DNA from: Balneola sp.
GTDB taxonomy: Bacteria > Bacteroidota > Rhodothermia > Balneolales > Balneolaceae
DNA: 64,000 nt
Assembly: GCA_002696035.1 (NCBI GenBank)
Contig: NZQV01000010.1
Coordinates: 806,001 to 870,000, forward strand
Direction: 5' to 3'
This document shows, in pieces, positions 47,501-64,000 of this stretch. The position numbers and the translations under genes were made by a program. The notes below the pieces were generated by a model. It did no database searches. It saw nothing but the letters and a program-made list of their open reading frames with translations, and had not been told where the DNA came from. Position 1 is the first letter of the stretch. Every line of letters starts with the position of its first letter.

Positions 47501-47925
47501 CGAACAAATCCAAATTCGTTGCTCGAATTCCATTCGTATTTAAAGGTTAGCTCCAGATCGTGATTGATTTCCTCAAACAAGATCTTATTGCCATATCGAT
47601 TTTTGTACAGGTTTCTTGTGCATTTATATCGATAAGCATCTCTTTCTGAAAAAGGCTCCCAGACTTGTACTCCTTCATCTGTGAAAACTTGAAAGATGGT
47701 TTTACCTCCAGTAGTATCAGCAAGCTCTGTAAGCTTATCATCAGTATAATAAGGAAATAAAGCATATTCAGCGTTCTTTCTTCCGGCTGTCAATCCTCCG
47801 TTACTCGAAATAAACATCCAATGATTTGAATCACTGACAAGACTCATGAAGAAAGGTCTTAAATCATCGTGATCTGAAATTTTAAACCATGTTTCTTTTT
47901 CTGAATTTTCAATCGTTATGGACAC
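44512..47925 (-). CDS. Beta-glucan phosphorylase, GH149/GH161/GH94-like
   Basis: This 1137-residue protein has no signal peptide and is predicted to be cytoplasmic. It has a beta-sandwich N domain (WMFISSNGGLTAGRKNAEYALFPYY), a linker and an (alpha/alpha)6 barrel with GYWGDHQIIYLLKF near 511-524 and PEWNDANNALVGNGVS, in which D636 is the candidate catalytic acid, equivalent to the DWND aspartate of GH94 cellobiose phosphorylase. The size (over 1100 residues) and context fit GH149 or GH161 beta-1,3-oligoglucan phosphorylases better than the 800-residue cellobiose enzymes. Such enzymes split beta-1,3-glucan with phosphate to glucose-1-phosphate. The exact family was not confirmed by alignment. 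Confidence 0.82.
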   Translation of the reverse strand: MSITIENSEKETWFKISDHDDLRPFFMSLVSDSNHWMFISSNGGLTAGRKNAEYALFPYYTDDKLTELADTTGGKTIFQVFTDEGVQVWEPFSERDAYRYKCTRNLYKNRYGNKILFEEINHDLELTFKYEWNSSNEFGFVRRSQLINHSSDEQKVSVLDGIQNILPHGVNSDLQTRSSNLVDAYKRSELVKDTGLGIFALSAIIVDKAEPSEALKANVVWSLGLEEPRFLLSSLQLDKFRDMVPVVEETDVKGEKGAYFIQTEINLEGGKDKSWMIVANVNQNHPNVIRLNEAIRSGEDLKSRVDQDVERGTEKLIQLVAGADGLEATSDEYQDARHYSNVLFNIMRGGTFDKNYVVEKADFEKYLRNANSTVFDQNSVFFSKLNETFTKFELDSLLSESEDADLDRLAGEYLSLKFSRRHGDPSRPWNKFSINTHSEVDGSKILDYEGNWRDIFQNWEALVHSYPLFVESMISKFLNATTFDGYNPYRVTKGGFDWETIEPDDPWSYIGYWGDHQIIYLLKFLEFYNDYRPEAFKALFRKNNFVYANVPYRIKSYEDILNDPKDTIDFDMESDRDIREKVAEIGADGALLKSSKDDIHHVNFLEKILATVLSKISNFIPEGGIWMNTQRPEWNDANNALVGNGVSMVTLYYLRRFLKFVESRLEEAEVDEIAVSDELNTFFSNIKAVLEQKKQLLDTSIDDEKRKDITDGLGKAGSDFRNTIYDQGFSGKKSGLSLSEVQHFVEVALEYLEHSIRANKREDNLYHAYNLMSVEGEGISISYLDEMLEGQVAVLSSKYLSPEDSLKVLDALRNSALYRKDQQSYILYPNKDLPGFLERNNIPEELVKKSELLQTLIADGNLDIINKDVNGGFHFNGNFKNARDLKNKIDEMRSGKYGSMIKKEEQLLLDIFEQVFDHKSFTGRSGTFFAYEGLGSIYWHMVSKLHLAVTEITIEAHEGQVDPSTLDQLLKHFDEVGKGIGIHKDPEVYGAFPTDPYSHTPQHRGAQQPGMTGQVKEDILVRFAQLGLRVEDGILSFDPFLLSSDAFIAESKAFELVDLGQEKYSISLPENSLLFTCCQVPVIYKLNDTNSIKVEFSDGEIEELDSLGLTKQLSDELFKRSGNVKQITVSLKESELR

Positions 47926-48016: not shown

Positions 48017-49291
48017 TCACCTTTCCTTACTAAGACCCGGGATCCGGATCTGATCGAAATGTTTTTTCAGTGATTCACTGGATGCATCTTCTGAATGCAC
48101 ATTATATTCATGTACTTCATCCAATAAGTAATATCCAAGTCTGGGCCGTAATTGGTAGAATCCTGAGGAGTCTGACTCCGCTTTTGCAGCCACCCCAAAC
48201 CACTCTTCATTCATATTATTCTGCCCTTCCGTGTAGTCAAACTCATAGCCTCCATTTGCCCAGGATGCAAAAGTATTGTGGACCTCAAGATCTTTGTTTT
48301 GGTCATATTTCCACCATCCATCACTGAATTGGAAAGTGTAGGCACCGATCACATTTTCATCCCCCCCCATACCGGACGCATTTTTGTAGATCTCTTTCCA
48401 GTTTCCCTTCAGGTAATAAGCCTGAGCCTCTTCTGCCTCTTCCTGAGTTTTAACATTGTATGCATCTGAACCAAACTCCGTTAGTAAGACCGGTTTCCCA
48501 TATTCCTTTTTGACGCGTTCAAAGAGATCAGTAAATGAGATCCCTCGATATGTGTTGGTGCCAAAAATATCAACGTCGGTCAGTTCTTCAGAAATGATAT
48601 CTAAGAACTGTACATCCCCGTTACAGAAAGCCACCGGATGATTTCCATCCACTGATTTCATTATTTTTGAGGCCTCATTCATTAACCGATACATGGCCCG
48701 GGCTTGAGTGGTTGAATTTCTGTCCTCAACAGGGATGTCTTCCGTTTCCGCTCCCTCCCAGAAAAGTCCATAGTTATTTTCGTTACCTATCAAATATAAG
48801 AGCAGACCAGGCGTATTCTTGTATTCTTCAGCCAGTCGCTTAACCTCCTCCAACAATATTGTTTGAACCTGGGGATCAGCATAATTTGTCTGAGGAATCC
48901 ATTCACCGTCGACAGAAACACCATAGCGTCCAAATGAATGGTTCAGCATCGTATAGATCCCATAATTCTCATAGATGTAGGTGATCCACTTTTGGGGAAT
49001 GCCGGTATACACACGGATCGAGTTCACACCAATATCCTGAAGCAAACCCATTTCGTAGTCCAACGCTTTTTGAATGAAATCATCGGATTGTTCCCATAAG
49101 CTGTATGAATATGTTTTGCCTATGGGGACGTAGTTCCAGTTCATCCCATTAATGAACTCGGCTTCTCCGTCTATAAGAAGCTGCCATCCATCATCAGATA
49201 GATTCACGGAAACATGATTTGGCTGAGCATGTACAGATGGGTTGCTACATGAAAAAACGACTATAAACAGACAAGCTTTAATTATATCCAT
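48017..49291 (-). CDS. Secreted clan GH-A glycoside hydrolase, family uncertain
   Basis: From the ATG at 49291 this protein has 424 residues, with a signal peptide (cleavage near VHA-Q22, or a lipobox at SC15). The barrel pattern is that of GH2/GH5-type clan A enzymes: FINGMNWNYVPIG, GVNSIRVYTG, acid/base E171 in LIGNENNYG and nucleophile E272 in LLTEFGSDAY. No GH2 sandwich domains are present. GH158 endo-beta-1,3-glucanases and GH2 C-domain-only enzymes are both possible. An earlier ATG at 49309 would add MRPECD, which weakens the signal peptide, so 49291 is preferred. It is the first gene of the glucan operon. Confidence 0.72.
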   Translation of the reverse strand: MDIIKACLFIVVFSCSNPSVHAQPNHVSVNLSDDGWQLLIDGEAEFINGMNWNYVPIGKTYSYSLWEQSDDFIQKALDYEMGLLQDIGVNSIRVYTGIPQKWITYIYENYGIYTMLNHSFGRYGVSVDGEWIPQTNYADPQVQTILLEEVKRLAEEYKNTPGLLLYLIGNENNYGLFWEGAETEDIPVEDRNSTTQARAMYRLMNEASKIMKSVDGNHPVAFCNGDVQFLDIISEELTDVDIFGTNTYRGISFTDLFERVKKEYGKPVLLTEFGSDAYNVKTQEEAEEAQAYYLKGNWKEIYKNASGMGGDENVIGAYTFQFSDGWWKYDQNKDLEVHNTFASWANGGYEFDYTEGQNNMNEEWFGVAAKAESDSSGFYQLRPRLGYYLLDEVHEYNVHSEDASSESLKKHFDQIRIPGLSKER

Positions 49292-49754
49292 ATCACATTC
49301 CGGTCTCATTATTTGGGATATAATGGCAGGAACTCAGAGCGGCTCCAAATCTATATTCACTGAATGAAATATTCATATGATCTTCTTAGTTATATGATAC
49401 CTTCGGTGTTTGGCATTAAGATATTTTACGACTCGAGTATAAGTTCATGCAAATTTTATCTTTTTTTTGCATGATTTTCCTACTTCTTTCTAACTCCTAA
49501 ACTAAATAAACAAACCATCAGCACTATAATTAAGCCTAAAGGTATTGAAATTTTCCGTTCGGAAATATGCTTTTTTCCTGAGTTATTTGCAAATTTAAGC
49601 AAAATTTTTCCTCAATTTGCGTTATACTATATGGGAGTGCTTTTACCCAGTCTTATTTTGGAAATTTGGCTTCGAATCGCATCTTAGAATTGGACTTTAT
49701 CCTGTGATATTGGGAGTACTCAGCGTACATTAACCATGCATTAAATTTTTGATT
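49292..49754. promoter_or_regulatory. Divergent control region of the glucan operon and GH16 gene
   Basis: About 460 AT-rich bases without a coding frame. A minus-strand TAGATTTG (49353-49346) matches the TAnnTTTG -7 element and lies about 55 bases before the glycosidase ATG, although no good TTTG lies at -33. A perfect dyad TTTCCG-TT-CGGAAA (49552-49565) and repeated GCAAA/TTTGC words (49587-49620) are candidate operator sites. No regulator gene is encoded nearby. Confidence 0.4.
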
Positions 49755-51659
49755 ATGACATTTTCCTTTCGAACCCTACTGAGCATCCTTTTTATTTCAC
49801 TGATATTTTCATCAAGTGCTTTTGCCCAAAAATTTGAATTGGTTTGGAGTGATGAATTCAATGAAACTGAACTGGATGAAAGTATCTGGAATCCCTGGGA
49901 AGGAACCGCCTATAATAATGAATGGCAATATTACACCCCTCGCGAAAAGAATATATATGTAGAAGACGGAATGCTCTATCTGGTAGGGCTACGTGAAAAT
50001 TATCAAGGACAACCATGGACTTCAGCTCGTATTAACACACAAGGCAACTTTGAGTTTCAATATGGCAAAGCAGAAATCCGAGCTAAGTTACCATTAGGGA
50101 AAGGTCTTTGGCCTGCTTTTTGGATGCTTGGTAGTAATATTGAGGATAATCAAATTGGTTGGCCTTATTCCGGTGAAATTGACATCATGGAATATCGTGG
50201 TCACTTACCTTATCAAACCAATGGGACCATACACTTTGCTGCCGAAGCACCGGAATTTCCGCGTACCCCAAACGAAGACCACCGGTATATTGGTCAGGAA
50301 TATGACCTGCCCTCAGGAAGTTTTTCCGAAGATTTTCACTTGTATCAATTTGAATGGACAGATTCTGTACTGGTTTGGTCTATTGATGATGTTGAGTTCT
50401 ACAGGCTTACACGAGAAGAGATCGAAGCGAGAACCAGCTACTACCCTTTTGATCAACCTTTCTACATAATTCTAAATTTAGCCATTGGTGGAGATTTCCT
50501 TGGCAATCAGCAGCCTGATGAAACTACCCCAGACAGAAATGAAGTGATCGTGGATTACGTACGTATATATCAGGATACGAATAAGGACCCCGAAGTAGAA
50601 ACTGGTTTGGGAAGTTCAGAAACTGTAGAACCTTACGACCTGATCGAGTTATCAGCTGAAGCAGCTGATGAAGATGGAAGCATCGAAAAAGTTGTCTTTC
50701 TAATGAATGAAAACATTATCGCTGTTGACTCTGTAGCTCCATATCAAGCCACTTGGAGGCCAGGCATTGACGGTTGCTATGACTTTCAGGTTAAAGCTTA
50801 TGATAATTTAAATAACATGGGTTCGAGCACACAAGAAACTGTTTTTATTGTTGGAACAGGTTGTGAAAAGCGTGCTTTTAATGACGAACCTCAAACATTT
50901 CCGGGAACGCTTCAATTTGAACACTATGATTATGGCGGTTTAGATAATGCCTACTATGACACTTCACCTGACACTAACCTGGGTAATAACCTGGGAAACG
51001 AATTCAGAGACACAGAAGCGGTAGATCTGATCCCAGATAAAAATCAAGAAGGTAATCACTTGCTCACAGAATTGGAGGCCGGAGAATGGACTACTTATCA
51101 GATTGAGGTCACCCAGTCAGGTATTTATGATCTTGAATTACGAGCTGTAGGAGGATCACAATCTGGTCGTTTAGATTTTATGATTGACGATGAGGATCTT
51201 GTCTATTATACACGTTTGGTGGCAAGAGATGGAGAACCTTACATCTCAAAAACCGTTACTGACGTTGAACTTACAGAAGGCTCATATGAACTAAAAATGG
51301 ACGTCGTTCAAGACGGGAACGGGCTTAAACCGGATCGGCTTAAAGCCATTTTGACAGAGAGTATAACCTCGAATGAATCTTCAAGAGGAATCCCATCCAC
51401 AGTAACACTGCATCAAAACTATCCGAATCCGTTTAATCCTAATACCAACATCTCTTTTAGTCTCGACCGACCACAACACACACATCTCTCTGTATACAAT
51501 AGTCTGGGCCAGCATATAAAAACCCTTTACTCTGGCACATTAACACAAGGTAGCCACTCTTTTTCTTTTGATGCATCCGGCTACAGCAGTGGTATCTACT
51601 ATTATCAGTTAACGTCTTCCACCGGGACTTGGACTCGGCAGATGCTGCTATTGAAATAA
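49755..51659 (+). CDS. GH16 laminarinase with T9SS sorting domain
   Basis: This 634-residue secreted enzyme has a signal peptide ending SAFA-Q25. The GH16 catalytic domain (about 26-275) has E141-x-D143-xx-E146 in GEIDIMEYRG, typical of beta-1,3-glucanases. An Ig-like domain (about 285-370), a CBM6-like jelly roll (about 390-535) and a T9SS type A C-terminal signal (HQNYPNPFNPNTNISF to the end) follow. It is therefore predicted to be exported by T9SS and held at the surface or released. The frame opens at a TTG two codons earlier, but the ATG at 49755 fits the signal peptide best. It is divergent from the glucan operon. Confidence 0.92.
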   Translation: MTFSFRTLLSILFISLIFSSSAFAQKFELVWSDEFNETELDESIWNPWEGTAYNNEWQYYTPREKNIYVEDGMLYLVGLRENYQGQPWTSARINTQGNFEFQYGKAEIRAKLPLGKGLWPAFWMLGSNIEDNQIGWPYSGEIDIMEYRGHLPYQTNGTIHFAAEAPEFPRTPNEDHRYIGQEYDLPSGSFSEDFHLYQFEWTDSVLVWSIDDVEFYRLTREEIEARTSYYPFDQPFYIILNLAIGGDFLGNQQPDETTPDRNEVIVDYVRIYQDTNKDPEVETGLGSSETVEPYDLIELSAEAADEDGSIEKVVFLMNENIIAVDSVAPYQATWRPGIDGCYDFQVKAYDNLNNMGSSTQETVFIVGTGCEKRAFNDEPQTFPGTLQFEHYDYGGLDNAYYDTSPDTNLGNNLGNEFRDTEAVDLIPDKNQEGNHLLTELEAGEWTTYQIEVTQSGIYDLELRAVGGSQSGRLDFMIDDEDLVYYTRLVARDGEPYISKTVTDVELTEGSYELKMDVVQDGNGLKPDRLKAILTESITSNESSRGIPSTVTLHQNYPNPFNPNTNISFSLDRPQHTHLSVYNSLGQHIKTLYSGTLTQGSHSFSFDASGYSSGIYYYQLTSSTGTWTRQMLLLK

Positions 51660-51770: not shown

Positions 51771-53501
51771 TTAGGGAAGACGCCTACCTTGTAAGGAAGG
51801 ATCATCGAAATGCTTCATAAGGCTCTCAAATGCAGTCGTATCAACCGATATTTCGGCATCAGCTCTTAGCTCCTGAATTTCTTTGACCACATTGTAGTAT
51901 TTTGACATTCGTTCGATCACCTGATCCTGAACTTCTTCAAACTCCACTCTCTGCATATCTCTTTCACTTACATTCATCACATAAAAAGCTTCGCCTGAAT
52001 TGGCTACTACTGTCTTATTGAGAGGAGCTCTAAATACATGAGATTGTAACGCATACACTTTTCTGACATCAGCACCCTTATGGTATTCGTAGTTTGGATA
52101 GGAATCAGGGGATGATTTTCCTGCTTGAATAGCATTTTTGATCTCCTGAGCAGCTTTAAAACTATCTGCTGTAATCACCCAACCTGAGAATGTTCTACTT
52201 TTGCCCGCATTCATGTCCATGCCACGGAAAGCTGCTTTTTGTTCTTCAATTGGAATATCAGGAACAGGTTGTTCAGACAAGTATTCTTTTACTAAGTAAG
52301 TCTTGTAAAATTTTGACCGGTAGTCCATATTGTACTCCACAATGGGGTCGTTTTCAATATCCTGAACCAAACCAGCTTCAAAAAATACCTGATTTCGAAG
52401 TGCTCTTCCCACTGAAGCCATGGTACGGTTTCTGGCTTCTTCCAGAGGAATTGTCTTAAGCCAGTCAAAATAATCTCCGGCAGTAAATATCCTTTCCTCT
52501 CCTAAGTGTGTGTAACTTGCTATCGGAGTATTGGGATTAAATTCTTGCTCTACAAATTCAACCTCAGCGCTTGTGGGATAACTGGAATTATCCTGTGGAA
52601 TTCCTGATGGCACCGGATTTGAACGGTTTCTGGGTTTTATTTGTCGGATTCTTTCAAAAAGATCTCTGACTGATTCCTGATCTACATTCACATCAAGACT
52701 TTGCATATACGTCTGTACAAACGCATCTCCTTTTAGCGTCATAATACGTTTTTTGGTCAGTCCTGTGATCCCCTCTTTTTTGTATTCAAATTCAGCACTA
52801 GTCATAATAGGATTACCGATCCTGTTATTGACAAAAATGATGTGATACCCCTGACGGGTTCGAACGGGCTCTGAGTATTCTCCCGCTTTCAGTTCATATG
52901 CGGCCTCTCCAAAAGCGTCATCAACGTTGAAATAACTGATCTCCCCCAAATAACCAGCCGTTGAATCATATTGGGGAACATTATAGATCTCATTGGCCAG
53001 ATCCAGAAAAGATTCTCCGTTCTGTAATCGTTGATAGGCTTGCTCGGCTTCTTTTTGATCTGTAAAGAAAAGGTGACTTACATGTAGCTTCACCTTGGTA
53101 TTAAAAAAAGCAGTTTCAACTTGCTGTTCGTCTGGTAAAGAAAGCGTATCAAGAAAGGAGGCTGAGTAGAATCGGTCGGCCACAGAAATTCGGAGAACCT
53201 GGTCCATATATTCTTCATACTGCTCCCCGATTAGGTCGTATTTCCCTGCCTGTTGAGCTAATAAAATATCATCCGTTAAAGAGTTCAGAAATGCATATCG
53301 CTCCTCTTTAGTATCGTTTCTCCCACTACTAAGAATATGCTGAATATACGCCTGCTGGAAAAACTCAGCTGTCACCGTATCATCATTCACTACCGATACT
53401 GTGGGACCTTGGTCAAAGGTTTCTTCAGTTTGGGATGATTCTCTCTCGCATGAAAAAAATAGAATTGAAAGTAGTGCAAAAAAGACAACAGTCTTTTTCA
53501 T
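51771..53501 (-). CDS. Parvulin-type peptidyl-prolyl isomerase lipoprotein
   Basis: This 576-residue protein has a lipoprotein-type signal (ILFFSC). A SurA-like N-terminal helical region leads to a parvulin domain at about 135-235 (LHVSHLFFTDQKEAEQAY ... GYLGEISYF ... VRTRQGYHIIFV). A second, more diverged parvulin-like region lies near 410-520. SurA/PpiD-type proteins help fold outer-membrane and secreted proteins. Its place 19 bases after the PorV-like gene suggests help for the barrel or cargo proteins of this operon. The active-site residues of the second domain are not clear. Confidence 0.8.
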   Translation of the reverse strand: MKKTVVFFALLSILFFSCERESSQTEETFDQGPTVSVVNDDTVTAEFFQQAYIQHILSSGRNDTKEERYAFLNSLTDDILLAQQAGKYDLIGEQYEEYMDQVLRISVADRFYSASFLDTLSLPDEQQVETAFFNTKVKLHVSHLFFTDQKEAEQAYQRLQNGESFLDLANEIYNVPQYDSTAGYLGEISYFNVDDAFGEAAYELKAGEYSEPVRTRQGYHIIFVNNRIGNPIMTSAEFEYKKEGITGLTKKRIMTLKGDAFVQTYMQSLDVNVDQESVRDLFERIRQIKPRNRSNPVPSGIPQDNSSYPTSAEVEFVEQEFNPNTPIASYTHLGEERIFTAGDYFDWLKTIPLEEARNRTMASVGRALRNQVFFEAGLVQDIENDPIVEYNMDYRSKFYKTYLVKEYLSEQPVPDIPIEEQKAAFRGMDMNAGKSRTFSGWVITADSFKAAQEIKNAIQAGKSSPDSYPNYEYHKGADVRKVYALQSHVFRAPLNKTVVANSGEAFYVMNVSERDMQRVEFEEVQDQVIERMSKYYNVVKEIQELRADAEISVDTTAFESLMKHFDDPSLQGRRLP

Positions 53502-53520
53502 AAACTGATATTATTTGTAA

Positions 53521-54588
53521 TTAAAAATAGATCTTAAAGTCGATCATTCTAACGTTGCTAAGGTAGTTTTGTTGGGCAATGGCAAAATCAAAACCAATCC
53601 TGATATCACTTAGTGCCATATCGAAGCCCGCACCATAACCGACATGACTATCAACTTCATTTCCCAAGAAAAGATCTTTGTATCCACCTCTCAGGTAGAA
53701 ATTTGTTGAATTCGTTGAGTACACGAACTCGGCTCCAAAATCTCCATTTAATTTCTGGTCATTGGTTTGGTGAGACTCTCCCATCAACCTAAAGGTGTAA
53801 TAATCTGTTTTCACTACCGGGACTTTTATCCCAAATTTAAAAGACAGTGGCAAGTTCCAGGATTGTGTCTCCCTGTTAACAAAAACGCGGTCGTTATTTC
53901 CGGCATTTTCAGGATTCGGGTCGTAAGTATCACGAAGGTTGATCCCTCCCATTTGGAGTTGCCCACCAAAGTTTTGGATCGAAGCCGCAAGGGTTAGTCC
54001 ATTCAAATAGTCCGTAATAAGAGTAAGGCCAATATCTACTGCAACCGCACTTGCCTTCATATCCCAAATTCGTTGGGATATATATTTAGCTTTTCCACCA
54101 ATAAAAAAGTTGTCCGTAAGTGGTTGAGCATAGCTTAAGCCAAAGACCATGTCACTGGCATCAAACAGTTCGCCATTACCGTTCGGCTGGGTCTCTGTGG
54201 TAACTTCCATCGTTCCATAGCTAACAACGGCACCACTTAGCCCGATCACACCTTTGTTTGAAATAGGAATCGCTACACCAACAGCATTATAGTCAATGTC
54301 AGCAAACATTTGGTAATTGGAGAAGAACACGCCTCCTTTCTTTCCTTCGTGCTCAATTGCAATACCAGATACATTCCAGAATAAGGCATCTGCCCCACTT
54401 GCTGAAGCCGTGTATGCATGCCCCAACGCCGACGCCCTTGATCCCGTCCCTATTGTCAGGAAAGGTGCTGCTGTAGTTCCCACTTTACTCTGAGCTTGTA
54501 TATCAGCCGCCAGAAAAAGCGCGATAAAAAATATACCTATGTATGTGACAAAACTTCTGTTCATGATCTTCTTGTTCTGCAATTTCAT
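53521..54588 (-). CDS. PorV/PorQ-family outer membrane protein
   Basis: This 355-residue protein has a signal peptide ending IQAQ and begins SKVGTTAAPFLTIGTGSRASALGHAYTASASGADALFWN, which resembles PorV and PorQ (segments such as GSRASALG and ALFWNVSGIA). It is predicted to be a FadL-like beta-barrel ending DFKIYF. PorV shuttles T9SS cargo from the translocon to the attachment complex. Here it is translated directly after a T9SS cargo gene (stop and start share one base, TAATG), so it may be a dedicated partner of that cargo. A start at the second ATG (54564, MNRSF) is also possible. Confidence 0.82.
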   Translation of the reverse strand: MKLQNKKIMNRSFVTYIGIFFIALFLAADIQAQSKVGTTAAPFLTIGTGSRASALGHAYTASASGADALFWNVSGIAIEHEGKKGGVFFSNYQMFADIDYNAVGVAIPISNKGVIGLSGAVVSYGTMEVTTETQPNGNGELFDASDMVFGLSYAQPLTDNFFIGGKAKYISQRIWDMKASAVAVDIGLTLITDYLNGLTLAASIQNFGGQLQMGGINLRDTYDPNPENAGNNDRVFVNRETQSWNLPLSFKFGIKVPVVKTDYYTFRLMGESHQTNDQKLNGDFGAEFVYSTNSTNFYLRGGYKDLFLGNEVDSHVGYGAGFDMALSDIRIGFDFAIAQQNYLSNVRMIDFKIYF

Positions 54589-57500
54589 TACTTAATCACC
54601 GCAAATTTTCCAGTTTTCTCTCCTACTCCCGGTGCTTCTACGTGGAACACATAGATGCCGTATGCCACATCAAGTCCGTCTTTTGTGCGAAGATCCCAAT
54701 CGACATCACCATCATTAGTATTTGTATTATGCTGTAAGGTCTGGATGAGTTCGCCTCTCACATTAAAGATCCTGATCGTACACTCCTGAGGAAGATTGAT
54801 AAACTTGATCCTTCGTTCTCCACGCCCTTCCAGGGAATTACTTACCTGGGGTTCATACAAAGAGTATGCCCTATATGGATTTGGAACCACTTTGACATTC
54901 TCTAGTTCGGTAGCAGCAAGTTCTTCGTCTATGGAAGATTCACTGGTAGTGAACTGGAAGAAGTCGCCCTCTGCAAAGGGTTTGTTGTTTGAAATTCTGA
55001 GCACCTCGCCTTCACCCGGCATAACGGGAGTTTCTCCTGAAGGAGCCCGGAAGTTGATATTATGTCTCAGAACACGAACAGCTGCAGACTTTTGCTCCAT
55101 GATGATCAGTTCATCTGAAATGTCATATTCCTCATTCTCATTTCTGTCAAGGACCAACAGTTCAGCAGCTTCTCCTGTCCGCAAATTAACGGCCATCACA
55201 TTCAGGGAATCCCTTAGGTAAGTTGCTGTCTGAAATCTTGGAGGATAGTACACGTCATTGTCTGACCATCTTAATTCGAAGTCATCCGGAGTCAATTCGC
55301 CATTTCCAGTTTCATTCACCTCAAAATCAGCAAGCCAGTTCGTTTCATAGCCATCCACTCTTCTGGGATCGAAATTGAACTGCTCATTATCAGAACCGTA
55401 ATTGCCAACCCAGCCAGATCTGCCGAGGTTATAACCGATCTCAATATCATTCTGAAACTGCATGATAAAGCCTTCGACCACTGGAGACGATTCTTCCATC
55501 TGCCGGCTAATCAAGGTATCAGACCTACTGACATTGATCAGGGAATATCCGGCTGTTGCATAATATTCCGGGCTGACTCGAGTATCTGCACTGTCTCTGA
55601 AGAGAACTCTGTATGTATCTCCAAATGGAACTTGTGAACGGTCCACAATGGTAATTCCCATTGAACCTGTCCCGATCCCTGAAGTAATTTGATCAAGATC
55701 ATCTTCTGTTCCACTTTCAATGTAACCGGCCGGGCGGGCTCTTGGCGTCACAGCTTTAGCGTTGATGGATGAACCTGTGAGATTGAAGAACTGATCTACC
55801 CCAAAGTTGAATACATTTTCTTGCGGATCGATCTCAACCCTTCCTGTCGAATCTACCACGCCGCGATCGTAAGCCACAACAGCGTAGTAATAGGTAACTC
55901 CGTTGGTGACCTCCTCATCTACATAAAAGTATTGCAGGCCAGTATTTGAACCAAGCTGATATACAGCTGTATTATCGAGTACCGGCAAAGATCCTTGTAT
56001 ATCATTTACAAGATCCCACTGAGCGATTGGCTCATAGAAAGTCGGTGTTCCCTCTACGTTCGTGATCGTTCGGGCATCACTTAGTATGGGGTCCGTTCCT
56101 TTGTAGAGTCGGTATCCTTCAAAGTCGAATTCCTGAGTGAACCGGTCAAAACTGTTCACTGACACTGAATCCCAACCCAGGGTTACTTTACCATCCCCGG
56201 CAATAGCGGTAAGTGTTGGTGCAAAGGGAGGTTGTGCAAAATTATAGTTGGCATCATAGATATTTTGAACCGTGATACGGTTTCTAAAGAAGTCATTTTC
56301 GTCTTCACCAAATAACCATGAAAGGGAGAAAAAATCACTTACTGACGGTGGCAGATCAACCGGCCCTGATGTAAAGAGCACAAAAGGCTCATTATTTCGA
56401 AGTACTTCCGGTTCTTTGCCAATTTCTTCAAATAAATTTTCTTCGATCTTTTCCCAAATAAACTGGTCTTCCAGTAGGATGGTGAACTCATAATTCTGTC
56501 TAACACCCAGATCAAAACCACTTAAACCGATTTGATCTGACTCAGGTATATCAAGCTGGTCGAAATTTCGTTCTCCGTCCTGAGGAATTCCATCAGCCTG
56601 TCCAAAATCAGGTCCCGGATAACCGCGGTCATTCGGGCCCAATCCATCAACACCTGTATCAGAGTTCAGAAACTCACCGGGATCCCATTGTCCATTATCA
56701 TTTTCATCCGAAAAAGAGATCCAATTCGCATTTTCATCACCGGTCCACCAGCGTCCGGCCTGGTAAGCAGGCAGTTGGTCTATAGAGCCATAGACGCGTT
56801 CAAAGTTGGCCATGTTATAGTTAGATTCGATGTAGTTTCGAATATTCTCTTGTCCTTCTATAAGCATTCCTGGTCCGGAATCACGGCGTTCATCAACGAT
56901 CCCATCCTCATCATTATCCAGCATATCAAATGGATCAGCTGGACTTTCAAGGAAAGCAAAACCAGTATATCCCAATTCATACTGTCCCCCATTGGGAAGC
57001 GTTCCTAGCCCATTACTGTCCCATCCGTAAGCAATATCAAGCTGAGCATTGAAAGCGGCATTGTCATCCGTTTCATCATTATCACCACCAAGCCCATAGT
57101 CATTTCCCTGAGCAAAGAACAAGCTGTCGTGTTGTGTTTGTCCTACATTCGTGATCCGGTACAACATGAACATCGTATCTTCAGCCAGCAAGTTAGCCCA
57201 CTGTAAATATCGGACTTGTATTTGCAGACCTAATCCCCCTTTGGTTGAATCTGTAGCATCCGGATAGTACACGCCATATTCACTATAGGGTTCGCCGGTA
57301 TCTTCATCGATCTGATATCCCTTATTTTGAAGATCATCGATCACATAGTACGTTTCGAGATCGGCATTGAATACTCCTTTCCCGAATAAACCATTCCATG
57401 CTCCGGGCCAGCCGGGATCATCCGGATTGTCCAAACGATCTGGCCAAAAATCAGGCCAACTTTGTTGATCGTCACTGATAGCGGGAATTCGCTGAAAAGA

Positions 57501-57962
57501 ACCACTTATCGGACTTACCCTATTTTGATTCAAAAATCCATTAAGAGGTTGCATACTCCATAATTCCCCTGAAGGGCTTCTTCTTTGTCCCGTTTCGCGA
57601 TAGTTGATGGCAACCGGATTCAAGGTTGTATCAGACATGCCGGGATAATATTGTTGCCATTTTTCTCTTTCTCCAGTGACACGGCCGACAATGTAGAGAC
57701 CAATTCCGTCAATATGCCGACCACCAATGGAACGGGGCCATACACCAAACGGTACATCGTTGTATCGGGATAATTCGCCCGTATTACGATAATTTGTTTC
57801 GATCAAATTACCATCCAATACTCCCCTGGATATCCAGTTGGAAGATCCCCGGTATTCATCGGGAATGGATGATTGGGCAAATGCAAATTCGGACAAGCCA
57901 ATAAATGCAATTACACCTGCTAATAAAATTCTGTTTAGATACTTCTTATACATGTATTTCAT
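54588..57962 (-). CDS. Large T9SS-sorted surface protein of unknown function
   Basis: This 1124-residue protein has a signal peptide ending FAFAQ and a T9SS C-terminal signal (KVVPNPYRAYSLYEP to GKFAVIK). In between I see no catalytic motif. Calcium-binding-like Asp loops occur near 345-358 (DNDEDGIVDERRD) and 420-434 (DENDNGQWDPGEF), and a fibronectin III-type domain near 578-695 (PTLTAIAGDGKVTLGW). It is the third gene of a conserved-looking set: TonB receptor, this protein, PorV-like barrel. I infer a glycan-capture or receptor-lid role in place of SusD, but there is no direct proof. Confidence 0.75.
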   Translation of the reverse strand: MKYMYKKYLNRILLAGVIAFIGLSEFAFAQSSIPDEYRGSSNWISRGVLDGNLIETNYRNTGELSRYNDVPFGVWPRSIGGRHIDGIGLYIVGRVTGEREKWQQYYPGMSDTTLNPVAINYRETGQRRSPSGELWSMQPLNGFLNQNRVSPISGSFQRIPAISDDQQSWPDFWPDRLDNPDDPGWPGAWNGLFGKGVFNADLETYYVIDDLQNKGYQIDEDTGEPYSEYGVYYPDATDSTKGGLGLQIQVRYLQWANLLAEDTMFMLYRITNVGQTQHDSLFFAQGNDYGLGGDNDETDDNAAFNAQLDIAYGWDSNGLGTLPNGGQYELGYTGFAFLESPADPFDMLDNDEDGIVDERRDSGPGMLIEGQENIRNYIESNYNMANFERVYGSIDQLPAYQAGRWWTGDENANWISFSDENDNGQWDPGEFLNSDTGVDGLGPNDRGYPGPDFGQADGIPQDGERNFDQLDIPESDQIGLSGFDLGVRQNYEFTILLEDQFIWEKIEENLFEEIGKEPEVLRNNEPFVLFTSGPVDLPPSVSDFFSLSWLFGEDENDFFRNRITVQNIYDANYNFAQPPFAPTLTAIAGDGKVTLGWDSVSVNSFDRFTQEFDFEGYRLYKGTDPILSDARTITNVEGTPTFYEPIAQWDLVNDIQGSLPVLDNTAVYQLGSNTGLQYFYVDEEVTNGVTYYYAVVAYDRGVVDSTGRVEIDPQENVFNFGVDQFFNLTGSSINAKAVTPRARPAGYIESGTEDDLDQITSGIGTGSMGITIVDRSQVPFGDTYRVLFRDSADTRVSPEYYATAGYSLINVSRSDTLISRQMEESSPVVEGFIMQFQNDIEIGYNLGRSGWVGNYGSDNEQFNFDPRRVDGYETNWLADFEVNETGNGELTPDDFELRWSDNDVYYPPRFQTATYLRDSLNVMAVNLRTGEAAELLVLDRNENEEYDISDELIIMEQKSAAVRVLRHNINFRAPSGETPVMPGEGEVLRISNNKPFAEGDFFQFTTSESSIDEELAATELENVKVVPNPYRAYSLYEPQVSNSLEGRGERRIKFINLPQECTIRIFNVRGELIQTLQHNTNTNDGDVDWDLRTKDGLDVAYGIYVFHVEAPGVGEKTGKFAVIK

Positions 57963-57963
57963 T

Positions 57964-60726
57964 CTAAAATTTGACGCTAAATCCTATACTTATTCTTCTT
58001 GGTGCAGATAAAAACTCCGGACGTTCGAACCAATCATCATACGTATTTAACCCAAGAAGGCGACCTTGCCTTGCATTCACTTCATCAATGGTAAAATCAG
58101 GGCGTCCTGAATCGTTATATACCTGTTGTGGAGCTTTTGCATCGAAAAGATTTTCGATCTGAAGTATGAGTTGTGCATTTTGCCAAGGTAATGTGTAATA
58201 AGCTCTCAAATCACTTAGCAAAGTAGTAGGACGATCTACATTATTTGGAATGTAGGAAGTTACACCAGACCGTTCACTTGTATAAGGCCGGCCGGTGTTC
58301 AAACGATTTACTAATGTGATGTTTAGGTCATCGATCGGTACGAATGTCAAAATGCTATTGATCACATGCCGTCTATCCCAGGGTAAACGGGCCAGCACAG
58401 TTATATCATCAAGCCCCGCCTCTCTTCTAAGCTGACTATTACCCGAAACAAAAGCACTTCCATCAGCAAACTGAAGGGTATAATCCAGGTTCCACCGAAA
58501 CGATCCAACAGGTCTTTGTGAAAGTGATAAGGTAAAGCCACGAATAGTTCCATAGTCCTGATTTTCCGGCCTTGTTACAATCCCGGAAGTAATCTCGTTT
58601 CGTTCGATCAATATGGCAGTCAGGTTACGAACATCCTTTGTGAATAGGGTTAGTTCCAAGCCAATATCTTCTGTTAATGCCTGCTGAAGCCCGATTTCAA
58701 ATGTAGATGTTTGCTCCGGATCAATGTCAGGATTACCAAAGCTTGTGGTGGTCGAACCTTCCAATACAAAGTATTCAGGATTCAAATAAATGCTGTTGAA
58801 AGAAGGAGTTTGAAAGAAAAGACCGTAAGAAAATCGTACTACACCGGTCTCACTAATTGGGAATGCAACACCTATTCTTGGACTGATCTGTGTTTTAATA
58901 CTTGCTGGTCTGCGATTGTAAACCGAGTCAGCAGGATTGTTTACATCGGGTATGTACTCCTGTCCACCTAATGAATAATTTTTTGGAACCAAAAAGTCCG
59001 GATCAAAATAATCAAATCGTACTCCGGCATTAATAATCAGGTTTTCCAGCTCTATCTTGTCTTGTATATAACCGGCAAATTCTATGGGATTCACATTTAG
59101 ATCTCTAAAACCTGCTCCGGGATCACGACTCGGATTGATCTCAGGTTCAAATCCAGTACTGGAATCAATGATAATCCCATAACTTTCACTCGATATATCG
59201 TGAAGACGAACCTGTCCGCCCACTTTAACCTGGTGAACACGGTTAACCTGGCTTGTCACACTACCTACAATGGTATGTGTTTGTGTAAGGTCGTTACCAT
59301 AGCCAAGATCGTTACCTCCTATAGCAAAAGCATAAGCCCCTGTTTGTTGACCAAAACGAGGCTGAACCAGGCGATCATCTAAAATACCGTCATACAGTTT
59401 GCTCTCGAACTCGGATCGCAGGTAACTATATGACAGATTGGAAAAGGTCTTCGATGAAAAGGAATGTCTTAGACTCAGAATATGCGTCTGGTTGAAGGTA
59501 TACTGACTATTTCTTCCTCCGGGCACATATTTTCGGTCATGAGCATAGTAGCTGCTTTCTCCGGATTGAAGAAAGGCATTATAATCCAGTTTTGTAGTGC
59601 CTGTGAAGTTATATGTCAAACTGCCGTTTAAAGAATATCTTTTCCCACCGCTCATAGGTACAAAATCACCATCTCCTGTAGATTCTATGATCCAGTCTTG
59701 TTCAGGATTATTTGGGTCTGTATAGCCGCCAGGAGGACTTGATTGGATATAAGAAGATGAATCTGAGGGATTGAAAAGCTCTCTTCCAAACAGGGTCCCC
59801 TTATCATCGATGAATCTTCCTGTCAGCTGGATTCCCAATTTGTCCTTGATTATAGGTCCTCCTGCATTTAATTGAAAGTCTAAGCGGTTCGGGATTCCGG
59901 CAACTTCATAATAAGGTACTTCTTCTGTTTCAAAATCCAGGTAACTCAGATCTGATCCTGGATCTGCATTACGTTCTAAAAAGTTAAGTTTTCTGTTACT
60001 GGCAATTGCCCTGACCAAGCCGCGGGTGTCAAAACTCCATTCATTTGGAACATCTTTAGTTACAATATTTACTACACCGGAAAGTGCTTGTCCATATTCA
60101 GCATTAAACACACCACTTATAACTTCCAGGCTGGAAACCATGTTTTGCTCAACCTCAAATCCAGCGCTGTTTGTATAAGAGTTATTAATTGGAACACCGT
60201 TCACAACATAGGCAACCTCACCTATTCTGCCTCCCCTGAAGTGCCCTTCTACCACACCAGCCTGAAGGTTAACAACATCATTAACAGACTGAACGGGAAG
60301 ATCTTCGATCTCTTCAGAACTTACATAGGAAGTTGTAGTAGTACGATCCTTTTCAACTATGGGGCGTTCAGCTGTTACAACCACCTCCTCTCCTTCAATG
60401 ACCTGTTCCTGAAGCTGGACATTTATCTCTGTAGTACGGTCTATGATCACCTCTACGTTTTTGACCCGTGTTTCCGCGAAACCGATGAACTTAAACACCA
60501 AATGGTATACACCTGGATCTACGTTAATGATACTGTAGAAACCATCAGGTTCAGTGATGGTACCTCTGTTTGTTCCATCAATGATAATCTGAACTCCCGG
60601 TAATGGGTCTCCATACTCGTCAGTAACTTTTCCGGATATTTTCCCTTTGCTTTGAGATAAAGCCGCAACTGGCATCAGTAATAATATCAAGAGTACCAGT
60701 AGATCTCGAGCTGATGATAAATTCAT
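57964..60726 (-). CDS. TonB-dependent receptor with CarboxypepD_reg-type domain
   Basis: This 920-residue outer-membrane receptor has a signal peptide (about 1-25), a CarboxypepD_reg-like beta-sandwich (GKISGKVTDEYGDPLPGVQI, about 28-115), a plug domain (about 130-235, EIEDLPVQSVNDVVNLQAGVVEG) and a 22-strand type barrel ending ISIGFSVKF. It would import oligosaccharides with TonB energy. Unlike canonical SusC it has no SusD gene after it, and at 920 residues it is closer to general CarboxypepD_reg receptors. Only one base separates it from the 1124-residue gene. The receptor class is secure; the substrate is inferred from the locus. Confidence 0.88.
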   Translation of the reverse strand: MNLSSARDLLVLLILLLMPVAALSQSKGKISGKVTDEYGDPLPGVQIIIDGTNRGTITEPDGFYSIINVDPGVYHLVFKFIGFAETRVKNVEVIIDRTTEINVQLQEQVIEGEEVVVTAERPIVEKDRTTTTSYVSSEEIEDLPVQSVNDVVNLQAGVVEGHFRGGRIGEVAYVVNGVPINNSYTNSAGFEVEQNMVSSLEVISGVFNAEYGQALSGVVNIVTKDVPNEWSFDTRGLVRAIASNRKLNFLERNADPGSDLSYLDFETEEVPYYEVAGIPNRLDFQLNAGGPIIKDKLGIQLTGRFIDDKGTLFGRELFNPSDSSSYIQSSPPGGYTDPNNPEQDWIIESTGDGDFVPMSGGKRYSLNGSLTYNFTGTTKLDYNAFLQSGESSYYAHDRKYVPGGRNSQYTFNQTHILSLRHSFSSKTFSNLSYSYLRSEFESKLYDGILDDRLVQPRFGQQTGAYAFAIGGNDLGYGNDLTQTHTIVGSVTSQVNRVHQVKVGGQVRLHDISSESYGIIIDSSTGFEPEINPSRDPGAGFRDLNVNPIEFAGYIQDKIELENLIINAGVRFDYFDPDFLVPKNYSLGGQEYIPDVNNPADSVYNRRPASIKTQISPRIGVAFPISETGVVRFSYGLFFQTPSFNSIYLNPEYFVLEGSTTTSFGNPDIDPEQTSTFEIGLQQALTEDIGLELTLFTKDVRNLTAILIERNEITSGIVTRPENQDYGTIRGFTLSLSQRPVGSFRWNLDYTLQFADGSAFVSGNSQLRREAGLDDITVLARLPWDRRHVINSILTFVPIDDLNITLVNRLNTGRPYTSERSGVTSYIPNNVDRPTTLLSDLRAYYTLPWQNAQLILQIENLFDAKAPQQVYNDSGRPDFTIDEVNARQGRLLGLNTYDDWFERPEFLSAPRRISIGFSVKF

Positions 60727-60798: not shown

Positions 60799-63700
60799 TT
60801 ATTTGATCAGCATCATTTTCTTGCTGCTGCTGAATTTGCCGGCTTCGATTCTGTAAATGTACAGTCCCGAGCTGAACATGGACGCATCGAAATTAACAGT
60901 ATGCGCTCCGGATGTCATTTGCTGTCCGTCGATCAAGGTTGCAACTCTTTGTCCAAGAATGTTATAGATAGAGAGTTGAACTTTTTGACTGCTTGGCAGC
61001 GTAAATCCAATTTTTGTAGTTGGGTTAAATGGATTTGGATAATTTTGATCCAGGTTGAAACGCAGTGGAGTATCTACAAATTGCTCGTTACTGGTAACAA
61101 GGTCACTTCCCGCGATTGCAGCAGAACCCAACATGGTGATATTATCGTCACCCTCGTAGTTGAACCCTCCGGCCAAAGAAGATGGATATGTAATAACATG
61201 AGATGGATTTTCCCACCAGTTACCACCGTCGCCACTGTCTTTGTCGTATAATTCAAAACTCAGTGGAATATACTTGAGAGCATTTTTCTCAGGCAGTACC
61301 AATGGTTCATCTATAGGTTCACCACTATCATCAGTAGCTACTAAAAGATCATTTACATCAAATGCTGTTACAGCTCTCCAACCAACTCGGCTTTCACCTT
61401 CTACTATATTTTCATATAAAGAAGTAAAGGTAAATTGATGCTCACTGTTGTAATATAGCGTATTGTATGGTTTGTCAGGATCTTCAGTATTGTGCTCTGT
61501 CACCCAGAAACGAGTCAACATTCCATCTGGACCAGGATCGGTACTTTCGGAACTCATTTTAGGCTGTAGAGATAGGAAATAATCTGGCTTATCACCACGA
61601 CTTCTGAATTCATTGGTAGTACCTGTTGCGAAATCAACATCGTAGGTACCAAAGTGAATTTTCAGCTGGTCTTTAAGGTAATAGTTCCATTCCAGATCAC
61701 CGTCGCTAAACTCAGAAGACAGGTCTCCTGTCCCAACTCCCGGTATAAATGTATTAGGGTCCTGGTTCTCACGAGGATATACCGTTGTACCAAACATATC
61801 GGTTGGTGCGGATGTTGGTCCCGCAAGAATGTCATCATCATAAGCTTCTACGAAAATATACATTGTTTGCAGTCCTTCGGCTCTACCAAATGCCATCCAA
61901 ACCTGAGCTGAGGCGTCTGTCTGATCAATTCCCTCTTCTGATAGTAAGAAAGGCTTAAAATCATCTGTGGGCCAGCTCTCAAGATTGATCTCTCCTGATT
62001 CAAGATCAGAAATGATCTGTTCTTCTTGCTCAGTTGATAGTTCAAATATGTAAGGCATTACATCGCCAGTAGCCGTTACATTAGATGCAGTAAAGTTGGT
62101 TGGCGACTTGATGCTGTACTGTGTAGTTGGAACTACAGCATAATGGTACTCTACACCACTTACAGAAGGGTGAGGCAGCTCAGCTTCGTGAGTATAACTC
62201 AGAGCATCTGAAGTTCGGAAACTACCGATGAATTTAACTCCTTCGTCTTCAATGCTTTCAATTTCAGAGCCACTGTAATACAACTCATAGTTGAAAATAT
62301 TGGAGCTTACATCGTGGTCCCAGGAAATATTTACTTCCCCTTGGCTTGATTCAGAAACCACGTTTCCGGGCAAGTCAGGCAATGCAGTAGCTACACTTAG
62401 ATCCGTTTCGGAACGAGAACCAATGAAGAAGTCATCCACATAGAATGCACCACTTTGGTTGTTACCTAATCGGAAAGCAATTCTTCCCAATTTGCCCCAC
62501 TCCGGGTCGCCACCCAGTGTAGAATCGTTAGGGCTGACATCCATACTTCCATTCCATGCGGTTGGGAACGTCCATTTTTCTTGCTCTTCGCTGTATTGTT
62601 CGCTTGCAGGAAGCGGATCTCCATTCAGATCTAAACCTTTCAATGCAGAATCGTGCTCAGCAATAGTTGGTTTTGGCAATGGAATCGCAAGCTCATGCCA
62701 TTCATTGTCATAATATTCGCCCAATGGATACGCAATACCCCATTGTAGATCACTGTTTGTACCGTTTGTGACATCTGCAAGCATCAGGCTACCTGTTGCT
62801 CTCAACACACCTTCAGCATCCGTGTGATCCGCAGGATTGATTCGGATTCTCAGATATACAGTATCTACATCGGCCATATTTTGAGAGAAATCTACTCCAC
62901 CGGAGCCTCCCATATCCCAGAAGTATCCTAATTCGAAGAAAGCTCCTCCGTCTCCCAAACGGTGAACGAGATTATCTTCTTCAATAACATCTTCAACAAC
63001 TGTTCCATCAATGCTTGGAACTAATACATTCGGTCCGTCAACAAATAGAATTTTGTTGTCTCCAAACGGAGGATTTGGCGGATCGTTCTTAATAAATGTA
63101 ACGTCATCCCAATAATAGGTCTGTTCACCTGCATCAGCTCCGGCAGTACCGAAATTGAAGAAAATGGAAGCTTTGCTATATACGTTAGCAGTATTGAGCT
63201 CTGCCGTTCCTTCTACCTGATTCGTAAAATCAAACTCAAGTGTTTCCCAGCCTTCAGCTACGGTTGTATTAACCTCAGTTTCTACACTTATATTAGCATC
63301 AGCAGCGTCTTCAACTTTCAATCGTACAGGTACATCTGCAGCTGGAGACCAAACTCGAATAGTCATCACTGTGCTAAATTCAGAGAAAGGAACCGGGGCT
63401 GTAAAACCGGCGGCACCACCAATTGTTGTACCTGCCCAGGTTTGAGCAGAATCTGTTTTCACTGATTTGGCAACCAGGTTTTCATCATCGGTAGGATCTA
63501 CAACGATTTCGGAAACATTATTTCCAAAATCAGTCAATGCATAATCTACACTGGCTGTATCTTCAAAAGATACCGGTAGAGAAACCATATCCTTAACATC
63601 ACCTGAACCCCCACCTTCAACTCCAACTTGTTTAAGGGACATATTATCAACTATGAAGTCGTCGGCCGATAATCCTAATTCAAAAGCGAACTTAACCGGA

Positions 63701-64000
63701 TCTACAGTCTGAGACAGGTTAAATTCAAATTCGTAGGTTTGCATCTCAGTATTGGCCACAGAGTCAACAACAAAGAATGACGTAAATGATCCTCCATTTT
63801 CACCAAAGTAAAGTCTGAATGGGCGGCCATCAACATTTGACTGCGCATCAAAACTAATCACATACGATTCACCGGCTACCAACATATTAAGCTGTTCAGC
63901 GGAAAATTCCTGAATAAATTGCAGATGCCATGTAGCCGGACTTTCTGTAATAGTAGCATTGGTTACGGTAGCCTGACCATCAGTAACGCCAAAATCAGCC
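60799..64000 (-). CDS. Multidomain carbohydrate-binding T9SS surface protein (5' end outside window)
   Basis: The minus-strand frame stays open to the right edge, so the 1028-residue piece from the ATG at 63885 is not the true start. The visible part begins inside a CBM4/9-like jelly roll (VAGESYVISFDAQSNVDGRP ...), followed by further beta-sandwich modules (about 135-315 and 320-540, ending in YWDDV and YVDDFFIG motifs typical of such domains), a fibronectin III domain near 540-630, a large region resembling glycan-binding outer-membrane proteins, and a T9SS signal (NLDQNYPNPFNPTTKIGF ... MMLIK). No catalytic motif is seen. I read it as a surface glycan-binding protein feeding the TonB receptor 72 bases downstream. 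Confidence 0.8.
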   Translation of the reverse strand, partial: ADFGVTDGQATVTNATITESPATWHLQFIQEFSAEQLNMLVAGESYVISFDAQSNVDGRPFRLYFGENGGSFTSFFVVDSVANTEMQTYEFEFNLSQTVDPVKFAFELGLSADDFIVDNMSLKQVGVEGGGSGDVKDMVSLPVSFEDTASVDYALTDFGNNVSEIVVDPTDDENLVAKSVKTDSAQTWAGTTIGGAAGFTAPVPFSEFSTVMTIRVWSPAADVPVRLKVEDAADANISVETEVNTTVAEGWETLEFDFTNQVEGTAELNTANVYSKASIFFNFGTAGADAGEQTYYWDDVTFIKNDPPNPPFGDNKILFVDGPNVLVPSIDGTVVEDVIEEDNLVHRLGDGGAFFELGYFWDMGGSGGVDFSQNMADVDTVYLRIRINPADHTDAEGVLRATGSLMLADVTNGTNSDLQWGIAYPLGEYYDNEWHELAIPLPKPTIAEHDSALKGLDLNGDPLPASEQYSEEQEKWTFPTAWNGSMDVSPNDSTLGGDPEWGKLGRIAFRLGNNQSGAFYVDDFFIGSRSETDLSVATALPDLPGNVVSESSQGEVNISWDHDVSSNIFNYELYYSGSEIESIEDEGVKFIGSFRTSDALSYTHEAELPHPSVSGVEYHYAVVPTTQYSIKSPTNFTASNVTATGDVMPYIFELSTEQEEQIISDLESGEINLESWPTDDFKPFLLSEEGIDQTDASAQVWMAFGRAEGLQTMYIFVEAYDDDILAGPTSAPTDMFGTTVYPRENQDPNTFIPGVGTGDLSSEFSDGDLEWNYYLKDQLKIHFGTYDVDFATGTTNEFRSRGDKPDYFLSLQPKMSSESTDPGPDGMLTRFWVTEHNTEDPDKPYNTLYYNSEHQFTFTSLYENIVEGESRVGWRAVTAFDVNDLLVATDDSGEPIDEPLVLPEKNALKYIPLSFELYDKDSGDGGNWWENPSHVITYPSSLAGGFNYEGDDNITMLGSAAIAGSDLVTSNEQFVDTPLRFNLDQNYPNPFNPTTKIGFTLPSSQKVQLSIYNILGQRVATLIDGQQMTSGAHTVNFDASMFSSGLYIYRIEAGKFSSSKKMMLIK

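Follow-up and report, generated by a model that had tools for sequence, protein, structure and literature searches.

The locus described here raises the question of why a TonB-dependent receptor should be encoded together with a large protein that ends in a T9SS-type C-terminal domain (CTD) and with an outer-membrane barrel related to PorV. The window (the whole stretch of DNA that was analysed, 64,000 nucleotides of the Balneola sp. contig NZQV01000010.1) carries these three genes next to one for a parvulin-like PPIase. The original prediction read the four as a receptor built with its own surface lid, cargo shuttle and folding helper, possibly in place of SusCD. The features on which the following analysis rests are listed in Table 1.

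Table 1. Positions in the window of the four-gene unit, of two parts of the cargo and of the neighboring glycan-related genes.
Feature	Position	Strand	Remark
TonB-dependent receptor, 920 aa	57964..60726	(-)	N-terminal CarboxypepD_reg, plug and barrel (Pfam)
Cargo, 1124 aa	54588..57962	(-)	signal-like N-terminal helix, beta-supersandwich, FN3-like part, middle beta region, PorZ-type CTD
Cargo residues 31-575, predicted mutarotase-like beta-supersandwich	56238..57872	(-)	structure model
Cargo residues 1011-1124, PorZ-type CTD	54591..54932	(-)	conserved stretch from about residue 1024
PorV/PorQ-family outer-membrane barrel, 355 aa	53521..54588	(-)	14 predicted barrel strands and N-terminal helices
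Parvulin/PrsA-like PPIase	51771..53501	(-)	lipoprotein-like N-terminus; facultative neighbor of the trio
T9SS type A protein, 1278 aa, two CBM_4_9 stretches	60799..64000	(-)	start outside the window (L026:15800-19636)
GH16 glycanase with type A CTD and CBM6-like stretch	49749..51659	(+)	family match
Glycoside hydrolase	48017..49309	(-)	GH2-type TIM barrel match; family match
GH149 beta-1,3-glucan phosphorylase	44512..47925	(-)	1749 bits, cut-off 1150
GH17-like protein	43198..44511	(-)	30 bits, cut-off 28.2
GH30	41696..43192	(-)	family match
MFS sugar transporter	40217..41647	(-)	family match

The tight coupling of the four minus-strand genes was borne out from the DNA. The receptor stop codon TAG is separated by one base from the cargo ATG, the cargo stop overlaps the barrel start by one base (TAATG), and 19 bases (53502-53520) lie between the barrel and PPIase genes. 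Across sampled relative loci and the two modules of the source genome, the gap between receptor and cargo had a median of 4 bases (33 of 38 within 30 bases) and that between cargo and barrel a median of 2 bases (33 of 37), with lengths counted from the first start codon of each ORF. Since it recurs in relative loci, the tight spacing is beyond chance. The receptor scored 87 bits against TIGR04056 (SusC; cut-off 368), with the best stretch at its N-terminus, and by sequence it falls short of a full SusC. The cargo, searched as a whole protein, had no Pfam match, and the PPIase gene matched the PPIC rotamase family (Pfam/NCBIfam).

Conservation of the trio was assessed in 121 loci, comprising our own two, 39 hand-picked from a search of the phylum and the best 80 relatives from public contigs, all found through the cargo alone and then searched in six frames. 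Receptor, cargo and barrel adjoined in that order in 108 of these loci, where adjacency denotes a model-bounded distance of -300 to 400 bases and where the 121 include at least two duplicate pairs, each from one contig (L122/L137 and L102/L151). Eight of the remaining 13 loci end at contig edges (L117, L136, L146, L155, L194, L195, L201 and L204), and the other five (L114, L174, L181, L191 and L202) have a gene inserted or moved, with receptor and barrel still in the locus. Of the 296 genomes searched in the phylum, 132 matched a two-sequence cargo model at 1e-10, and 108 of these, belonging to 26 families, did so below 1e-40. Public genome contigs scanned with 25 cargoes gave at least 544 relatives among at least 582 stretches, and the best 80 of these were analyzed. 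By the titles deposited with these 80, which come mostly from metagenome-assembled genomes with taxonomy as deposited, the hosts include Rhodothermales, Balneolaceae, Ignavibacteria, Caldithrix, Neomarinimicrobiota, Latescibacterota, WOR-3, Stahlbacteria, Eisenbacteria, Fibrobacter and others. The span of hosts reaches from Balneolota to Ignavibacteriota, Calditrichota, Marinimicrobia, WOR-3 and Fibrobacter, so that the gene neighborhood proposed for comparison in Balneolota, Rhodothermota and Ignavibacteriota is conserved, and is conserved outside those groups as well. A gene for SprA, the T9SS translocon, was found in 36 of 37 trio genomes searched, the sole miss being a 1.2 Mb WOR-3 assembly.

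The PPIase is an optional part of the module. It was present on the same strand, at 300 bits or more, in 32 of the 121 loci, either after the barrel or before the receptor, and its absence from most loci does not agree with the folding helper that had been proposed as a regular member. A lipoprotein PPIase is reported on SprA (PMC9127263); a link of the window PPIase to that protein was considered and rejected, since its PDB matches, as listed, were PrsA and other parvulins alone.

The barrel belongs to the PorV family (PF19572) and, at 168.5 bits against NF033709 (cut-off 90), to the PorV/PorQ family in the wide sense. It stayed below the cut-offs of the equivalog models for PorV (NF033710, 64.8 bits, cut-off 250) and PorQ (NF033711, 79.7 bits, cut-off 220). 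The source genome has 11 PorV-family matches, nine of them above the cut-off, and ten of the 11, the window barrel included, were scored against NCBIfam. Among them L017 is the true PorV (298 bits, cut-off 250), L020 is the true PorQ (294 bits, cut-off 220), and L021 resembles PorV2 with a score below that cut-off. Judged by these profile scores, the window barrel is neither the housekeeping PorV, nor PorQ, nor the PorV2-like protein. A tree was built from 91 PorV-family proteins. Its 44 trio-barrel rows, which cover all sampled lineages, formed one group with support 95/95; the housekeeping PorV of 11 genomes, taken as the top NF033709 match of each genome with the equivalog model applied to L017 alone, formed a separate group (89/96), and the third group (100/99) comprised PorQ (L020) and three more rows. 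In the source genome, each of the two trio barrels grouped with its own orthologues and not with the other. The structure model of the window barrel (pLDDT 92.5; strands of Table 1 counted manually) was closest in Foldseek to PorV of the SprA complex (8gl6_F, E 1.1e-13) and then to FadL, and by sequence PorV was likewise the closest solved structure, ahead of FadL-family channels. The original prediction named two outcomes that would count against it, a trio confined to this locus and a barrel clustering with housekeeping PorV. What was found is a trio conserved elsewhere and a barrel distinct from the housekeeping protein in both tree and equivalog score.

PorV-family genes were also seen in other arrangements. 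L024:7278-10869, L270 and L260 encode a 522-553-aa protein; two PorV-family barrels come in tandem after it, and no receptor is present. In L024, the end of this protein matches PorZ weakly (40 bits). At L023:8810-18805, another PorV-family barrel comes after a 3005-aa protein whose type A CTD match is weak. The housekeeping PorV is followed by an inactivated M6-like metalloprotease at L017:190-4521 and comes directly after PorU at L265.

The C-terminus of the cargo matched the end of the NCBIfam PorZ model at 23.9 bits (cut-off 260), and a whole-protein score so far under the cut-off means that the cargo is not PorZ itself. The type A domains PF18962 and TIGR04183 had no match in the cargo at E 0.001. 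The cargo ends form a CTD family of their own (29-row alignment, cut by hand to 112 residues, about 100 of them conserved), and the best solved relatives of its profile were PorZ (5m11, E 2.4e-6, whole CTD) and PorU (6za2, E 0.0015); no cleaved CTD was among the 11 solved-structure sequences listed at E up to 1. The top Foldseek match of the cargo model was again 5m11, which aligned at Z 12.1 and rmsd 2.3 Å over 90 residues within 590-1124 (30% identity), and the CTD alone aligned with 6za2 at Z 10.7 and rmsd 2.8 over 88 residues of 1015-1124. The cargo CTD is PorZ/PorU-like in sequence and in predicted fold. The label "type C CTD" was considered for it and dropped, since a review already uses that name for ChiA (PMC10202324). 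The CTDs of PorU and PorZ are described as remaining uncleaved and as longer (PorZ 96 and PorU 108 residues, versus 67-88 in cleaved CTDs; PMC11285876). PorU remains on PorV and PorZ on PorQ, and it has been suggested in review that cognate PorV-like barrels may shield CTDs from cleavage (PMC10202324). PorU-PorV and PorZ-PorQ are reported as 1:1 subcomplexes (PMC5562754).

The AlphaFold model of the cargo (82-row alignment, pLDDT 88.4, pTM 0.78) is nearly all beta with few helices. In VIA alignments, a region within about residues 31-724 aligned with beta-supersandwiches over 250-278 residues, at Z from 20.1 down to about 15; the aligned ranges extend to residue 724 and further. The matches were dextran dextrinase, cellobiose and laminaribiose phosphorylases, GH116 and GH149, and the helical catalytic domain of those enzymes was not seen in the cargo model. 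The beta-supersandwich is common to many proteins, and the fold alone is no sign of binding. Conserved Asp-rich loops at residues of about 349-358, 419-430, 435-440 and 452-464, recognized from the sequence and its conserved columns, look like calcium sites and may bind calcium. With region limits set by hand, the FN3-like part and the CTD were the most conserved, and residues 721-1010 were the least conserved besides the signal peptide. A SusD-like identity of the cargo was rejected, given that none of the four genes had a SusD family match and that the model combines a supersandwich with FN3; no SusD was among the fold-search matches listed for the model, which carries no weight alone.

One full-length paralogue of the cargo exists in the source genome, within a second complete trio (L018, gaps 0 and -1). 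The genes after this second trio encode a type A protein that has CBM48/CBM20-like stretches, then a LacI regulator and an alpha-amylase. A third and looser module (L019) has receptor and barrel adjoining, with a PorZ-type CTD protein further up. The PorZ-type CTD profile was then applied to five genomes and gave 31 strong matches (75.6 to 149 bits). A PorV-family barrel lies in the same locus for 30 of these 31 proteins (G000 3/3, G089 3/3, G003 10/10, G236 9/9, G172 5/6), and a TonB receptor for 29. CTD gene and barrel mostly adjoin, and in a second layout the cargo is some 5 to 8 kb away. Upstream of the 28 listed barrels that go with PorZ-type CTD proteins, the immediately preceding gene was a PorZ-type cargo in 22 cases, a receptor in five, unlabelled in one and a type A protein in none; type A CTD matches in the same five genomes number at least 454 (66, 66, 52, 150 and 120). 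The profile (A4) was built from proteins near PorV-family genes and may therefore miss diverged CTDs that have no barrel; the next match after the 31 scored 51.0 bits, and this gap speaks against many having been missed.

The single exception to the pairing (L277:8380-10452) encodes a strong PorZ-type CTD protein with no barrel or receptor in a stretch of 19.9 kb, and a lipoprotein-like gene comes after it. The second layout (L019, L246, L251, L267 and L271) starts with a PorZ-type CTD protein and ends with a TonB receptor and then a barrel, with one or two genes in between. In four of these loci an intervening gene encodes a type A CTD protein; the barrels of the second layout form their own clade in the tree.

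Co-divergence of the parts was measured over 29 modules of the five genomes. Barrel and receptor distances were correlated at r 0.84, and at r 0.81 among paralogues inside genomes (0 of 2000 permutations). The CTD followed the barrel at r 0.39 (within genomes 0.29, 29 of 2000 permutations) and the receptor at r 0.51 (within genomes 0.29, 41 of 2000). In partial correlations over 103 trios, barrel and receptor retained 0.55 and three regions of the cargo body retained 0.23 to 0.28 with the receptor. Co-divergence of CTD and barrel was absent in these trios once all other parts were fixed (partial r 0.02), so that specificity of the CTD for its barrel gains no support by this route and barrels may be exchangeable. 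The data indicate that the module travels as a unit, with its tightest link between receptor and barrel. A conserved order of genes is by itself no proof of a complex.

The role of a glycan importer, which had been proposed for the receptor, is backed by the neighboring glycan-degrading genes (Table 1). Past the window edge follow a LacI regulator, a GH3 enzyme and one more hydrolase. The 1028-aa ORF listed at 60799-63885 is a shortened view of the 1278-aa CBM_4_9 gene. Laminarin loci of Formosa are reported to combine GH16, GH17, GH3, GH30 and GH149 near TonB receptors and SusD, plus an MFS transporter (PMC6246565). The window module lies in a laminarin-type locus and its paralogue (L018) in a starch-like one; judging from its neighbors, laminarin would be the substrate here. 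Near neighbors on the same strand were pooled from 28 loci out of 45 picked and were counted with no background set. These 84 proteins included 30 type A CTD proteins, 14 PPIases and 13 LacI regulators, and among the 25 of 50 families listed were CBM_4_9 (6), CBM_48 (4) and alpha-amylase (3). At 20 other GH149 regions of Balneolaceae, the enzymes had no receptor in their midst except for a single weak match in L286. Another 20 stretches, adjoining 13 of these regions, contained SusC-like genes in L309, L312 and L318 and a trio about 20 kb away in L320. No consistent uptake partner was seen at the 20 loci with SusC and SusD models built from two sequences and one, respectively; with models this small, and with large unlabelled genes that may be receptors, the misses weigh little.

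As a substitute for SusCD, the module fits in its role and not in its fold, the cargo not being SusD. Strict replacement also failed, as the source genome has one SusD match (PF07980, on another contig than the window) and two full SusC, elsewhere than the window module. Within the family of the window, 20 trio genomes had 0 to 7 SusD matches (median 2.5) versus 5 to 7 in 16 genomes without the trio (rank test 6e-7), where scoring stops at about 7 per genome and 12 of the 16 trio-less genomes come from two genera, so that the difference is not independent evidence. Over all 296 genomes, SusD was present in 58 of 108 with the trio and 101 of 188 without (odds ratio 1.0), the trio being scored as a cargo match below 1e-40 and a genome with a 9e-11 match counted as without. 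The trio as a strict alternative to SusCD was rejected on this basis. Like SusC-SusD, the trio joins a TonB receptor with a large protein of the outer surface, and its loci also encode glycoside hydrolases and proteins that bind glycans at the surface; unlike SusC-SusD, its cargo differs in fold and presumed export route, its receptor is not a full SusC, and an extra barrel is encoded.

We consider it probable that the trio is a self-contained outer-membrane glycan importer, in which a T9SS-exported cargo is kept on its own PorQ-like barrel as the glycan-binding partner of the receptor. The cargo would cross the envelope via Sec and then the T9SS translocon. Its PorZ-type CTD would stay uncut and, in the manner of PorZ with PorQ and PorU with PorV, dock on its cognate PorV/PorQ-family barrel, presumably 1:1, which would make the barrel both collector and lasting membrane anchor. 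The beta-supersandwich may then sit over or beside the receptor in a physical complex, binding or guiding oligosaccharides, here perhaps laminarin fragments that the GH16 enzyme releases and the CBM4 protein captures. The original prediction had seen the barrel as a cargo shuttle, and the nearest models, PorZ-PorQ and PorU-PorV, point to a standing anchor in place of a recycling shuttle.

A barrel that is only a recycling shuttle, which would carry the cargo from SprA to PorU, where the CTD is cut and the cargo anchored or released like a type A protein, is suggested by its membership in the family of the PorV shuttle and by the PorU gene beside PorV in a genome of the same genus (L265). We regard it as unlikely, however, as the solved T9SS relatives of the CTD are the uncut PorZ and PorU with no cut CTD among the 11, and as the literature has the many type A proteins of the five genomes all served by PorV, whereas a barrel of its own accompanies almost every PorZ-type cargo. 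Most CTDs are assigned to two families, type A, all PorV-served, and type B, tied to cognate PorP/SprF barrels (PMC12618676, 2025); anchoring of type B proteins by PorP-like barrels has also been reported (PMC9143113).

The barrel might instead be a diffusion channel of FadL type or play a structural role beside the receptor, with the cargo exported by the housekeeping PorV or PorQ. Its FadL-type fold would suit this, as would the barrel-receptor co-divergence, the strongest direct link within the module, and BamG, a FadL-family barrel, is reported to hold BamH in the BAM complex. Against it stand PorV as the closest solved structure, ahead of the FadL-family channels, and the presence of such a barrel in the locus of all but one of the PorZ-type CTD proteins, and we give it rather little credence. 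Improbable to a still greater degree is a cargo that is a surface-layer or adhesin-like protein and merely shares a common operon with the receptor; the FN3-like region and an S-layer protein as second Foldseek match of the cargo model speak for it, and the pairing with TonB receptors across phyla and the within-genome co-divergence speak against it.

The importer that we favor has partial counterparts among known systems. PorZ-PorQ and PorU-PorV, of the T9SS attachment complex, share the PorZ-type CTD and the PorV/PorQ-family barrel; these housekeeping pairs come without a TonB receptor, whereas the trio type reaches 3 to 10 modules per genome in the five genomes. In SprB-SprF (type B CTD, PorP/SprF barrel), a cognate barrel gene likewise adjoins that of a T9SS protein and is thought to be its anchor (PMC9143113, PMC12618676), but CTD and barrel family differ, and instead of receptors the proteins are gliding adhesins or similar. 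In the Bacteroidota BAM complex, BamG-BamH also has a FadL-family barrel that holds a surface-exposed partner (PMC12611786, PMC12578637), with another partner and another task.

The trio is real, widespread and coherent. The original prediction held that a dedicated PorV paralogue for a nutrient receptor was not well described, and we likewise found no description of one, or of the module, in the literature searched (titles and abstract starts on PorV and T9SS, with most subscription papers outside this scope). The barrel family has already been named by NCBI, so the single genes are known; the module and the pairing of CTD and barrel appear undescribed in that literature. We tentatively suggest, as a possibility short of an even chance, that such modules constitute a third class of TonB-dependent glycan importer in FCB bacteria and beyond, with a T9SS-exported outer partner held permanently on its own PorQ-like barrel and export and import joined in one complex. 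SusCD may remain scarce, as within Balneolaceae, in genomes that rely mainly on this system, which may be the older solution. If the proposed mechanism is true, a gene trio that recurs in these phyla without a name would gain a function, and the 8 to 24 PorV-family matches (some of them fragments) per such genome would in part be explained. T9SS proteins would have one more route to a cognate barrel. The trio would also provide a readable marker of glycan uptake for uncultured marine and groundwater lineages that is missed by SusCD searches.
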